From the NCBI RefSeq assembly GCF_000474745.1, contig NZ_ASJR01000002.1:62001-126000 (forward strand): 64,000 nucleotides of DNA. The letters run 5' to 3'. The translations under genes and the position numbers were made by a program. Origin of the DNA: Chitinivibrio alkaliphilus ACht1. Lineage in GTDB: Bacteria; Fibrobacterota; Chitinivibrionia; Chitinivibrionales; Chitinivibrionaceae. Position 1 is the first letter of the stretch, and each line of letters starts with the position of its first letter. The notes below the pieces were generated by a model that did not search any database, was not told the DNA's origin, and was given only the letters and a program-made list of their open reading frames with translations. This document shows positions 48,004 through 52,973 of this stretch, in pieces.

Positions 48004-50781
48004 ATGAAATCATCAACGTGTTCCACGGTTTTTTTATGTCTCTGCTGTCTCTTTTTTACCCTTCAGGCCGCGCAGAGAAACGAAGGTGCTTTCCGCACCG
48101 CATCTGCCATGGGAGAGTCCGTAGAGTCGGCGTTGCATAAAGCGCAAAGAGATGCCCTTTGGGAGTATGCACAAACCCTTTCCGACCGTTCTTTTCTTCG
48201 TGAGTATGAACAGAAGGTAGAGGAGTTTTTCCAAACCCACAGAGAAGATCTTATCGTTTCTTCGGAGATCCTCGAAAAGAAAAGTCGTTATGGGGTATAT
48301 GAAACAACGGTACGGCTGAGAGTGAATGAAGATTTTTTTATAGACTCTTTTGAAGCCGAGGGGTTTCTCGTAGAAGAACAGGTTGAAAAGCCCCGTGTGA
48401 TGGTACTTCTGGAGGAGTATGAGCAGAATACACCTGTACACGATAATATTGTAACCCACGTAATTGAAGGAGCTCTCACAGCTCAGGGGTATCAGCTTCT
48501 TGAAGAGGAGCAATTGGAACGGGTACGCCAAGAGGATACGGACGGTGAAGATCTTGCCGCTTTGGGTTTTGCCCATGGAGCAGATATTATTATTCGCGGG
48601 CGTGTTGATATTGCAGCTCCCCGTGTACAGACCGCCTATGGAGTTTCGCAAGTCTCAGTGCCGGTAAATGTGAATGTACGGGTGATTCGTGCTGATAATG
48701 CAGAGATTATTACATCACTTTCGGAACGGGTCCTCAAACGTACACTTGATGAGTATACCGCTCGCGATGATGGTTTGCGTGAAGGTGGCGAGATTATCTC
48801 TGCTGGTATTGATGCGGCCATATCAGCCTACTGGCGTGAACATACGCGTGGCTTACGTCGTATAGAACTATTGGCACACTCCCAGAGTGAGGAAAAACTG
48901 TATGATCTTGAATCGTCCTTTGCGAAGATTCCCCAAATAAAGCAGGGCCATTTACGGTATGTTGAACAGGGGCGGGCCGTGTATGATGTTGAAGTGCTGG
49001 GAACTGTCCAGGCATTGCGCAGACAGATTGAGCAGCATGGAGTATGGAGAATTAGTGCTCTTGCTCCGGGACGTATTGCCCTTCAGGAAGGGGAACGCAC
49101 AACGCCGGGGAAGATTTCCTACGATATTGATATGCCCTCTCTTTCGGTACGCTCCGCTCAGATAGAACCCATATTCCCCTCACGGCTTCGCTATTATGAA
49201 GAAAACGATATTGCTGAAATTACCGTAGCAGGAGGTGGAGAACAGGTAGATGATCTTCGTGTCCATGTTTTTATACCTCGCTTAATGGATATGCCCACGG
49301 AGCGTGCCGTTTCCTTTTCCCAGGGTGGCGAGAAAACCCTTTCCATGCCTCTGCTTCTAAATGAGGAGAAACTCCTGGAGTTTTCTGCGGAACGGCAAGT
49401 GCCTGCAGAGGTGTCTTTGTCATACACGATTCAAGGGCGTCGGGAGTCGCGCGAGATTATGGTGCCCGTACGGGTATACACCCGTAATGGCCTTGATTGG
49501 AACAATCTACCCAGTCTTGGGTCTTTTGTAACATATCAAAACCCAACCATTGATCGGTTTGCACGGTATGTTGTTGCTGAGTATGATCGCTCGACCTCTC
49601 TCCCCGATGACCTGAGTGATGCTATCGCTATTTTTAGCGCCCTTCGAGAACACGGATTTACCTATGTAAGTGATCCCGTAAATATTGCGGCATCAGGTCT
49701 TGATCAAGTCTATTTTCCCGTGCAAACCTTAGAAAAACGCACCGGAGATTGTGATGATTTTGCCGTATTATACGCAGCTCTTCTTTCAGCTATTGGTATT
49801 CCCACGGCGTTCATTGTTTATGATGATCATGTCTTAACCATGTTTAATACAGGTGTTTATGAGAAAAATGCAGACATTCTTGGTGTAGATAGGAACAGGG
49901 TTATTATTCACAACAACCAGTGTTGGATTCCCGTGGAAACCACCATGTTATCTGACACGTTTTTTGACGCGTGGTCTGCGGCGGCACAGCAGTTTCGTCA
50001 AACCGTTGCTGATGGAGGTCGTTTTGATATTGTAGAAGTTGCCACGGCGTGGCAAACCTATCGTCCCTTTGATTATCGACATACCATAGATCTACCTCTG
50101 GAAAACCTTCTCTCCTCGGTAACGGTTGATTTAAGTCACGTATATGAGTATGCTCGAAATAGCATGTTTCAAGCCATCGAAGATCTTGAGAGTCGAGATA
50201 CACTCTCTCTGACTGAGAAGAATCGTCTTGGTCGTCTCTACGCTCGAAGTGGTGATTTTTTGGCAGCTCGCGAGCATTTTTCCGGCCTTGTTGAGCTGTA
50301 TGGGGAGAGTCGAGCTGTACGGAATAATTATGCCTGCGCTTTACTCTTAACCGGAGATGATGGAGCGGCCATTGGCCAAATAGAAGAGGCTTTGACCCGT
50401 GGTTCTTTTGAAGAAGGTTTAATTAATAAAGGGTTATTTTACTACGTATCTGATCGTTCTGATGGTATGGATGTCTTTTCTGATATGGTTCGTGAGGTGT
50501 ACACAAAAACAGGAAGCCTGGATAGTTTTGATCGACTGCTCGGTATTCCCGTAAGTACTGAACCGACAGAACGAGCCACGGATCACTCCGGTGAGGAGCA
50601 GCAGATAGATCGAAGTCGCTTACAAGATATGATTCGTCAGCAAGTGCTGGAAGATGATTTTTCTGGGGCTGGTGACACGGATTCATATGGCGGTAATGTT
50701 ATGCCCTTTGGTGGTGTTCGCGGTGCAGATCCTACACAAATTGCTGAAATTGCAGATCTACTTGTTTGGATGGATTTATGA
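48004..50781 (+). CDS. Secreted FlgT/CsgG-like, transglutaminase-like and TPR protein
   Basis: 925 residues with a signal peptide (VFLCLCCLFFTLQAA). Residues about 20-110 resemble the FlgT N-terminal domain (ESVESALHKAQRDALWEYA). Residues 115-290 resemble a CsgG/FlgT middle domain (LLEEEQLERVRQ, GADIIIRGRVDI). Beta-rich domains lead to a transglutaminase-like fold with catalytic Cys583 (KRTGDCDDFAVLYAALLSAIG) and His609 (VYDDHVLTMFN). TPR-like repeats follow near residues 725-840 (LGRLYARSGDFLAAREHF, NNYACALLLTGDDGAAIGQIEEAL). The Cys/His dyad suggests a periplasmic peptidase or amidase. Start 48004 has GGGGAA upstream. Its stop overlaps the cyclase start. Confidence 0.8.
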   Translation: MKSSTCSTVFLCLCCLFFTLQAAQRNEGAFRTASAMGESVESALHKAQRDALWEYAQTLSDRSFLREYEQKVEEFFQTHREDLIVSSEILEKKSRYGVYETTVRLRVNEDFFIDSFEAEGFLVEEQVEKPRVMVLLEEYEQNTPVHDNIVTHVIEGALTAQGYQLLEEEQLERVRQEDTDGEDLAALGFAHGADIIIRGRVDIAAPRVQTAYGVSQVSVPVNVNVRVIRADNAEIITSLSERVLKRTLDEYTARDDGLREGGEIISAGIDAAISAYWREHTRGLRRIELLAHSQSEEKLYDLESSFAKIPQIKQGHLRYVEQGRAVYDVEVLGTVQALRRQIEQHGVWRISALAPGRIALQEGERTTPGKISYDIDMPSLSVRSAQIEPIFPSRLRYYEENDIAEITVAGGGEQVDDLRVHVFIPRLMDMPTERAVSFSQGGEKTLSMPLLLNEEKLLEFSAERQVPAEVSLSYTIQGRRESREIMVPVRVYTRNGLDWNNLPSLGSFVTYQNPTIDRFARYVVAEYDRSTSLPDDLSDAIAIFSALREHGFTYVSDPVNIAASGLDQVYFPVQTLEKRTGDCDDFAVLYAALLSAIGIPTAFIVYDDHVLTMFNTGVYEKNADILGVDRNRVIIHNNQCWIPVETTMLSDTFFDAWSAAAQQFRQTVADGGRFDIVEVATAWQTYRPFDYRHTIDLPLENLLSSVTVDLSHVYEYARNSMFQAIEDLESRDTLSLTEKNRLGRLYARSGDFLAAREHFSGLVELYGESRAVRNNYACALLLTGDDGAAIGQIEEALTRGSFEEGLINKGLFYYVSDRSDGMDVFSDMVREVYTKTGSLDSFDRLLGIPVSTEPTERATDHSGEEQQIDRSRLQDMIRQQVLEDDFSGAGDTDSYGGNVMPFGGVRGADPTQIAEIADLLVWMDL

Positions 50782-52973
50782 CAAAAAAAGGGATGCCCAA
50801 AGAGCATAGACCACAATCACAAAAATATAAGCTGCTTTGGGGTGGTCTCGTTTTTTCATTTGCCTTTGTGGCACTTCTGTTTCGTATCCCCACTGTGGCA
50901 GTGCAAGAGTGGCGTGTATACGATTTCTGGACTCGGAATGAACATGGAGGAGATGTTTCATCTTCTGTTGCGGTTGTCGGTATAGACGAAGATTTTTTTG
51001 AAACTCTCGGATTTACATGGCCCCTGCGGAAAGATGTATATGCTCGTATTCTCATGATGCTTGAGGAGTATGGCGCTACTGTTACAGCCCTCGATATCAT
51101 TTTTATTGACGAGATGATCCATGACGATGATGCACTCTTCCTACAATACCTTGCTGCTTCTCCTTCCGTAATTCCCGGGTTTGGCTTTGTCGTTCGACAA
51201 AGCGACGGGGGACGGGGAGTTATTCCGGGACAACAACATCGCTTTATGGAACGATTTTCGCACGGAGATGGAGAAATCTATTTTGATGACCGGTCTGTGC
51301 GGCGAGTACAGCGTCCCTATGATGCTGTGGGTGATGTGGTTCAGCGTATGGGCTTTATTAATAGGGCCGTGCCTATGCCCGATGGGGTTGACCGAAAGAT
51401 GCCCGTACTGCTCTCGGCAAATTCACGGGTCTATGCTTCCCTTGCTCTTGAGGCAGTTCTTGCGTACACAGACCATACGCTCTCCTATGATCTTGATAAA
51501 TCAAAACTCCACCTCAGTGATGATACTATCTCTCTTGATGCGGAGTATGGCATTACGGTAAACTTCTCTGATTCGCTTCCCTTTTACTCTTTGAGTAGTC
51601 TCTATCGAGGCTATAATGCATATCTGCGTGGGGATACCGATTCGCTTCCGCAATTGTTGGACAAGGCAATTGTCTTTGTTGGGAGTGCTGCAGAAACCGT
51701 GGGAGATTTGGGATTGACACCTCTTTCTCAACGGTACAGCAGCGGACGATCTCCTATCGTGCAGCTACATGCTCAAACAGCCCACACATTGCTCGAAGGG
51801 GATCCCGTAGTAGACCTCGGTTTTAGAGCTGCTTCTATACTCTCCTTTGGAGCGCTCCTGTTGTTGTACGGTATATTTCTATTTCTTTCAAAGAAGTTTT
51901 TGTTTATATGCATTCCCCTTCTGTTTATTTCTCTTTATATGGGGGCGTATTTCCTGTATCTTGAAAATGTTTTTCTTCCCATGGTCCAGGCATTCGTCTC
52001 CGTAGCAATTTTTACAGGAATTGGGATTATTGTGGATTATCTTGAAGATAATCGGGAATACAAATATTTAACCTCTCTTTTTAAGACCTATCTTTCTCCC
52101 CAATACATTGAGGAAATGGCGCGTACCCATACAATACCCAAACTGGGCGGAGAGTCTGTATATGGTACTGCTTTTTTTACTGATATTGAGAAGTTTTCTA
52201 CTTTTTCAGAGAAATTTGATAATCCCCAGGATCTTGTGGCAGTTCTTAATACGTATTTTTCGAAAATGACCAATATTCTTCTTGAGAATAAGGGCACCCT
52301 TGATCGATACAGTGGTGATGCAATTATTGCGTTTTTTGGTGCTCCACAGCGTATTCCACAGAATGCGTTTCATGCCTGCAAAGCTGCGTGCCAAATGCAA
52401 CGTGCGTTACGAGAATTGGAAGTGCTGTGGCAAAAAGATCCTGATATATCTCAAAAAATCACATCTATGAGAACCCGTATCGGTATCAATACGGGTAATT
52501 TTGTCACGGGAAATATTGGGTGTGATATACGAATGAATTATACCATGATTGGCGACAGCGTAAATCTTGCTGCTCGCCTTGAGTCCGCTGCAAAGCAGTA
52601 TGGGGTTTCCGTTCTTGTGGGAGAAACCACTCGTGAAGATGCGGGAGACTCTTTCTTTTTTCGTTGGGTTGACACGATCACCGTAGTAGGAAAAAAGCAG
52701 CCGGTGCGGGTGTATGAACTCATGGGGGAGAAAGAGGTGTGTGAGACGGAAGAACAGACGCAGATAAACGACCTTATCAATGTGTATGAATCAGCTCTTC
52801 AGAAGTATACAGAGGGGGATTTTTCCACAGCCTTGGAAGAGTTTCGTCGTAGTTGCGAGAGGGAAATTTCTCCTGGGATGAGTCCATCCACAGTTATGGT
52901 GAAGCGAACGGAGTATTTATGTGTCCATCCCCCTTCACAGTGGAATGGAGTCTTCTCTCTGACTCAAAAGTGA
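50778..52973 (+). CDS. CHASE2 class III nucleotide cyclase
   Basis: 731 residues. An N-terminal helix is followed by an extracellular CHASE2 sensor (VAVVGIDEDFFETLGFTWPLRKDVYARILMML, TALDIIFIDEM, DKAIVFVGSAAETVGDLGLTP), then three helices (LSFGALLLLYGIFLFL, FIPLLFISLYMGAYFLYL, AFVSVAIFTGIGIIVDY). The C-terminal cyclase has both metal-site Asp residues (FFTDIEKFSTF; LDRYSGDAIIAFFGAP) and the IGDSVNLAARLES segment. The Lys that reads adenine in adenylate cyclases (DKxxGD) is Arg here. It is translationally coupled to the transglutaminase gene (ATGA). Confidence 0.9.
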   Translation: MTKKGMPKEHRPQSQKYKLLWGGLVFSFAFVALLFRIPTVAVQEWRVYDFWTRNEHGGDVSSSVAVVGIDEDFFETLGFTWPLRKDVYARILMMLEEYGATVTALDIIFIDEMIHDDDALFLQYLAASPSVIPGFGFVVRQSDGGRGVIPGQQHRFMERFSHGDGEIYFDDRSVRRVQRPYDAVGDVVQRMGFINRAVPMPDGVDRKMPVLLSANSRVYASLALEAVLAYTDHTLSYDLDKSKLHLSDDTISLDAEYGITVNFSDSLPFYSLSSLYRGYNAYLRGDTDSLPQLLDKAIVFVGSAAETVGDLGLTPLSQRYSSGRSPIVQLHAQTAHTLLEGDPVVDLGFRAASILSFGALLLLYGIFLFLSKKFLFICIPLLFISLYMGAYFLYLENVFLPMVQAFVSVAIFTGIGIIVDYLEDNREYKYLTSLFKTYLSPQYIEEMARTHTIPKLGGESVYGTAFFTDIEKFSTFSEKFDNPQDLVAVLNTYFSKMTNILLENKGTLDRYSGDAIIAFFGAPQRIPQNAFHACKAACQMQRALRELEVLWQKDPDISQKITSMRTRIGINTGNFVTGNIGCDIRMNYTMIGDSVNLAARLESAAKQYGVSVLVGETTREDAGDSFFFRWVDTITVVGKKQPVRVYELMGEKEVCETEEQTQINDLINVYESALQKYTEGDFSTALEEFRRSCEREISPGMSPSTVMVKRTEYLCVHPPSQWNGVFSLTQK

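Follow-up and report, generated by a model that had tools for sequence, protein, structure and literature searches.

The secreted protein P0001 and the CHASE2 class III nucleotide cyclase P0002 are encoded by overlapping genes in the 64,000-nucleotide window (the whole stretch of DNA that was analysed). Because these two genes are found together across several phyla, they are very probably parts of one envelope signalling device, and their functional linkage appears nearly certain to us. The reading that we favor, with a probability of roughly 0.6, is an envelope module in which the secreted protein acts upstream of the CHASE2 cyclase; it would involve contact between the two proteins, catalysis, and a signal that the cyclase receives from its secreted partner. 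CHASE2 sensors are common in bacteria and have no known general trigger. A partner whose presence matches that of one CHASE2 type in each genome, and which carries invariant putative catalytic residues and a short conserved tail, reduces the question of the CHASE2 input to a few bench tests.

An earlier note on this DNA had described a 925-residue protein that shares an ATGA with a cyclase gene, and both reading frames and the overlap were found exactly as it had placed them. The features of the pair are the following.

48004..50781, + strand: P0001, secreted protein with FlgT/CsgG-like, Ig-like, transglutaminase-like and TPR parts, 925 aa (Pfam, AlphaFold, Foldseek)
48091..48357, + strand: FlgT N-domain-like region, residues 30-118 (AlphaFold, Foldseek), missing in Ignavibacteria homologs (alignment)
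48394..48843, + strand: FlgO/CsgG-like domain, residues 131-280 (FlgO match in homolog P0005, AlphaFold, Foldseek)
49141..49476, + strand: Ig-like beta domain, residues 380-491 (AlphaFold), corresponding to the same module of NCBIfam ProA
49504..50103, + strand: transglutaminase-like (papain-fold) domain, residues 501-700 (Pfam Transglut_core, PNGase fold match)
49750-49752, 49828-49830 and 49936-49938, + strand: putative catalytic triad of P0001, Cys583, His609 and Glu645
50119..50541, + strand: TPR region, residues 706-846 (Pfam, AlphaFold)
50701..50778, + strand: conserved C-terminal tail MPFGGVRGADPTQIAEIADLLVWMDL, residues 900-925, behind a low-confidence linker
50778..52973, + strand: P0002, CHASE2 class III nucleotide cyclase, 731 aa, starting inside the ATGA overlap (Pfam)
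50871..51845, + strand: CHASE2 sensor, residues 32-356 (Pfam), lying between the first TM helix and the next three and presumably periplasmic
52167..52721, + strand: cyclase catalytic domain, residues 464-648 (Pfam, alignment)

Read by eye, the upstream neighbour of the pair is a divergent MlaE-like ORF and the downstream neighbour a convergent ORF for an AmpD-like amidase that overlaps the 3' end of the pair by 39 bases; with neighbours so oriented the pair looks like an isolated two-gene operon. Three Fibrobacterota relatives retain the pair, and the genes outside it differ. The genome of the window (2.59 Mb) has only one CHASE2 receptor.

Homologs were sought with the secreted protein only, and the queries were thus blind to the partner. 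A scan of genome contigs with the single protein gave no relatives; an alignment-based scan found them. Full-length homologs number 36, from Fibrobacterota, Ignavibacteria/Bacteroidota and one myxococcote, and in 28 of them a CHASE2 receptor is encoded no more than two genes away in the same orientation. A Latescibacterota match (L136) was excluded from the 36, as it is divided between two ORFs and has no FlgO-like part. In Fibrobacterota, a CHASE2 cyclase lies directly downstream in the window and in three further genomes (G027, G153, G043). In G019 the order is CHASE2-histidine kinase, sigma-54 response regulator and then the P0001 homolog, so that here the output has changed and the sensor has been kept. 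The fibrobacterotal genome G020 has two P0001 homologs, neither with a cognate cyclase, which speaks against the favored reading. Among the Ignavibacteria/Bacteroidota of the alignment-based scan, 12 of 15 homologs adjoin a CHASE2 receptor, as does the homolog of the myxococcote (L087), and a class-wide survey added 13 genomes, 10 of them with adjacent genes. Both gene orders occur: the receptor comes first in three Ignavibacteria/Bacteroidota loci (L084, L088, L108), with one small gene in between, which in L084 is CsgG-like at a score below the cut-off. As a separate observation, both G020 homologs (L065:2364-5231 and L066:9637-12534) are directly preceded by a gene of about 285 residues that by eye looks like a member of the TIGR02147 Fibrobacter paralog family.

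In one class, for which 245 genomes were surveyed, 20 genomes encode the full-length secreted protein and 20 encode the cognate CHASE2 cyclase, and the two sets are identical. Nineteen secreted proteins score at least 828 bits and one is a contig-edge fragment, the next match scoring 353 bits; for the cognate receptor, whose profile was built from linked receptors, the corresponding values are 19 at or above 739 bits, one contig-edge fragment and 610 bits. The Fisher value for this co-occurrence, 9e-30, ignores kinship and overstates the evidence because the 20 genomes are related. The co-occurrence search that the earlier note had proposed thus strongly bears out the pairing, by adjacency over three phyla as well as by identical genome sets. 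The same note had counted separation of the genes in relatives, with no interaction, against its idea. Such separation does occur, in 6 of the 20 genomes, but none of the six lacks the cognate receptor: the unlinked genes lie on the same contig about 7 kb (G419 and G292), 6 kb (G389) or 19 kb (G181) apart, or on different contigs (G249 and G177).

The CHASE2 sensors themselves point to a partner-specific type. Identity to the CHASE2 domain of P0002 is 28–37% for linked Fibrobacterota receptors and 19–28% for unlinked ones, which is suggestive, but since the ranges overlap a tree was used in place of identity. When the tree is built from the sensor domain alone, all partner-linked sensors group with the four that come from genomes whose two genes are unlinked, and the CHASE2 paralogs which these genomes also encode lie across the dividing branch. 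This deep branch is weak (73/80) and several rows are long, whereas most inner groups are strong. One row (L151) repeats the window sequence under the wrong label 'other' and inflates the count of label changes. Distances among sensors and among secreted proteins correlate with r = 0.967 over 23 pairs, a value computed without a third-gene control, of which shared ancestry alone could give much. Of the sensor pair proposed in the earlier note, then, the association itself is sustained by co-occurrence, a one-to-one CHASE2 type and this correlation, and the presumed contact, catalysis and signalling direction are inferences.

P0001 was modeled by AlphaFold from 21 homologs, with a mean pLDDT of 80.6. 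The model has alpha/beta domains at residues 30–118, 131–280 and 285–362, an Ig-like sandwich at 380–491, a transglutaminase-like domain at about 501–700 and TPR helices at 706–846, followed by a low-confidence linker (880–911) and a final helix (910–919). Pfam detects Transglut_core (PF01841) at residues 535–605 with 27.1 bits (cut-off 23), several homologs scoring just under the cut-off, and a weak TPR at 741–801. Best PDB matches of the model by Foldseek are FlgT 3w1e (E 6e-7, TM-score only 0.27 of the target), the ring structure 8z5n, LptE and CsgG; PNGase, which has a transglutaminase fold, ranks lower. The transglutaminase-like and TPR parts named in the earlier note are thus both recovered, by Pfam and by structure. 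Its FlgT/CsgG-like part appears to hold at the level of fold, but the Pfam FlgT and CsgG models, FlgT_N included, have no match in P0001; one homolog has FlgT_N at a score under the Pfam cut-off, and homolog P0005 matches FlgO with 23.6 bits against a cut-off of 22.6. The N-terminus, read by eye, is a hydrophobic helix with no lipobox and fits a secreted protein. We place P0001 in the periplasm because of this signal-like helix and because FlgT/CsgG-type domains build outer-membrane rings elsewhere.

In the transglutaminase-like superfamily, the third residue of the catalytic triad is usually Asp. Cys583 of P0001 sits in a GDCDD motif and, together with His609 and Glu645, likely forms the corresponding triad, judging from the alignment. 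All 106 homologs in which these positions are occupied have the same three residues, even distant relatives whose N-terminal parts are different; the third, assigned by position, is Glu in each. This invariance speaks for a putative active site that has been kept, with Glu in place of the usual Asp. The Cys and His of the transglutaminase-like part named in the earlier note are thus conserved throughout; the unusual third residue is a point against the mechanism favored here.

The last 25 or so residues of P0001 follow the pattern FGGxRGADPT...LLYW. Among the ORFs of the loci examined, this pattern was found only at the C-terminus of the P0001 family and in one spurious antisense ORF (L134). 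By alignment, one of the G020 copies retains it only weakly, and it has disappeared from the G019 homolog, where the histidine kinase replaces the cyclase. It is intact in genomes where the two genes are unlinked, so it may have another purpose. The tail would be the best candidate in P0001 for a docking or cleavage motif and, lying behind the TPRs, it is a better candidate for the contact site than the TPRs themselves.

P0002 has the architecture of a CHASE2 receptor. Pfam places CHASE2 (PF05226) at residues 32–356 with 113.8 bits (cut-off 26.3), the model shows membrane helices at 348–369, 372–395 and 403–435 after it, and Guanylate_cyc (PF00211) covers 464–648 with 74.1 bits (cut-off 21.9). 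By alignment, the metal residues D469 and D514 and the transition-state residues N596 and R600 are conserved, which makes the enzyme a member of class III, and the domain resembles CyaB, CyaC and Cya2. T589, N596 and R600 are as expected of an adenylate cyclase. Where close homologs have the near-invariant, substrate-specifying Lys, however, P0002 has Arg510 (window positions 52305-52307). We have therefore lowered the claim of adenylate cyclase for P0002, whose activity could, on this replacement, be altered or lost. Receptors for a cyclic nucleotide do exist, as the genome of the window encodes eight cNMP-binding proteins. Elsewhere in this genome (G000:C21:14484-16768), two neighbouring long frames of 690 and 725 aa give partial class III cyclase matches. 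In Fibrobacterota CHASE2 cyclases of about 1000 residues (L068, L069, G168:C335, G169:C150, G170:C211), a long insertion splits CHASE2 into two Pfam pieces.

In the mechanism that we propose, P0001 would sit in the periplasm as the dedicated upstream partner of the inner-membrane CHASE2 cyclase. Its variable N-terminal part would gather an envelope or external cue, and the constant part, from the Ig-like domain through the transglutaminase-like domain and TPRs to the tail, would engage or process what CHASE2 reads. As an enzyme, P0001 might cut off its own tail or cleave a different protein of the envelope. The resulting change in cyclic-nucleotide output would then act on at least one of the genome's eight cNMP-binding proteins, the direction presumably being from the secreted protein to the cyclase.

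The alternative that survives best is a shared pathway without contact, in which P0001 uses its FlgT/CsgG-like part to assemble or reshape some structure of the envelope, CHASE2 senses the envelope state or a small ligand, and the genes are linked only for co-expression. The folds of FlgT, CsgG and PelC are those of outer-membrane assemblies, and in six genomes the genes co-occur unlinked, both as this explanation would have it. We nevertheless consider it rather unlikely, as a dedicated partner would better account for the conserved, family-specific tail and for the fact that, of the several CHASE2 types in a genome, a single one corresponds to P0001.

In the LapD/LapG system, a membrane receptor controls LapG, a transglutaminase-like protease of the periplasm. 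A similar inside-out control, whereby a membrane protein would hold or release the transglutaminase-like protease for cutting an envelope substrate and the cyclase would report or tune, has this precedent and the invariant triad in its favor. It appears improbable, however, because the output domain of the receptor is a cyclase or histidine kinase, a producer of signal and not a messenger-binding effector, and because NCBIfam CystProtLapG matches P0001 negligibly (13.3 bits against a cut-off of 320), which also removes P0001 from the LapG family. LapD/LapG does resemble the window pair in tying a periplasmic transglutaminase-like protease to an inner-membrane signalling protein, but LapD binds c-di-GMP and the system has neither CHASE2 nor a cyclase.

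FlgT is the best fold match, and a flagellar FlgT-type part with the cyclase as bystander was therefore weighed. This is very improbable: no flagellar genes were recognised beside P0001 or the relatives examined (the window neighbours are, by eye, MlaE-like and AmpD-like), and the Ignavibacteria homologs keep the pairing without the FlgT N-domain. Accidental operons exist, but chance adjacency of two unrelated genes can hardly be maintained against identical genome sets and 28 adjacent cases in 36, where about 0.2% would be expected per case given about three CHASE2 genes per genome, the cases being treated as independent.

Several known systems bear on the favored reading of a secreted partner acting on CHASE2. 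The factors recognised by CHASE2 were stated in 2016 to be not known (PMC5192318). Since then a plant protein signal relayed via NsrA has become a well-studied CHASE2 input in one symbiont (PMC7529298): in Sinorhizobium meliloti, this outer-membrane protein was shown genetically to feed the CHASE2 cyclases CyaK and CyaD1/D2 (PMC7529298, PMC13001267). It is the nearest functional precedent, having an envelope protein upstream of a CHASE2 cyclase, as is proposed for the window pair; unlike P0001, NsrA is an outer-membrane beta-barrel for which no protease-like domain is described (PMC7529298, PMC13001267). Near precedents in gene order are two. A FecR/LysM protein and a CHASE2 histidine kinase form a Burkholderia biofilm operon (PMC5192318), and clusters of FecR, TPR and a CHASE2 adenylate cyclase occur in Campylobacterota (PMC9239204); here too a secreted partner stands beside a CHASE2 receptor with an interchangeable output domain, but the partner is FecR/LysM instead of transglutaminase-like and CsgG/FlgT-like. 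P0001 has no Pfam match to FecR and none to LysM, and so does not belong to the FecR-CHASE2 group. MtxA of magnetotactic bacteria (PMC4439547) is likewise secreted, has Ig-like and TPR parts and is followed by a CHASE2 adenylate cyclase gene; it has 313 aa against the 925 of P0001, and the word transglutaminase is absent from that paper. In Trichodesmium, a metacaspase-CHASE2 fusion (PMC2853523, PMC3501461) also couples a cysteine-protease fold to CHASE2, but in a single polypeptide, with a caspase fold and a protease predicted to be cytoplasmic. CHASE2 receptors partnered by FecR, MtxA or NsrA are thus already known, and a transglutaminase-like partner is not described in the papers that our literature search found; the only one among them to name both CHASE2 and transglutaminase (PMC8195603) does so in separate contexts.

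The Ig-like and transglutaminase-like module is also common to the anti-phage protein ProA (NCBIfam NF058533), with up to 73.9 bits in a homolog. ProA, however, has 1903 aa with the module at its N-terminus, and P0001 scores 45.7 bits against a cut-off of 1500 and is not a member. PADLOC returned no match for P0001 and, for P0002, no more than a generic similarity to Pycsar cyclases, which leaves a defence role of the window pair without support.

Most relatives from Gammaproteobacteria, which are about 1,700 residues long (NHL-TPR-transglutaminase; class B), have no CHASE2 neighbour within the flanks examined, so the wider family of Ig-transglutaminase proteins does not share the tie to CHASE2 that the full-length family shows. 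Six loci do have one (five divergent, and L112 downstream), and in G433 and G225 one lies downstream. Ig-transglutaminase-TPR proteins adjoin CHASE2 receptors in L097, L100, L105, L134, L148, L112 and L195; in those tested (L097, L112, L195), the FlgT/CsgG-like part gives way to an N-terminal beta-propeller of the NHL or Reg_prop type.

Other CHASE2 cyclases of the Ignavibacteria genomes that encode P0001 homologs have secreted-looking neighbours of different kinds: WD40-caspase in five loci, TPR-CHAT in one, SH3-M48 in two, and FecR and/or a protein of about 790–840 residues in nine, with roughly one partner type per CHASE2 clade in the sensor tree. On the basis of these partner types beside paralogous cyclases, we tentatively raise the possibility, from 20 loci, that CHASE2 in general is a receptor for dedicated secreted partners, often of protease fold, with one partner type per clade. 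If so, the input of CHASE2 would be a protein, its activity or a cleaved peptide and not a small molecule.

Some of these loci may be described individually. The WD40-caspase (Peptidase_C14) genes stand beside a CHASE2 cyclase in L203, L207, L210, L212 and L216 (G173, G175, G176, G177 and G181, respectively), and in L203 and L207 a DUF4384 protein is encoded between the two. The CHASE2 cyclase at L199:7152-10115 lies beside a TPR-CHAT protein, and those at L201:2849-4081 and L204:3247-4446 lie beside SH3-M48 metalloprotease genes. The protein of about 790–840 residues is encoded directly beside one clade of CHASE2 cyclases (L197, L200, L202, L205, L206, L208, L211, L213, L214); four of these partners were tested and gave no Pfam match, and a FecR protein was found nearby in the two loci tested for it (L197 and L202).
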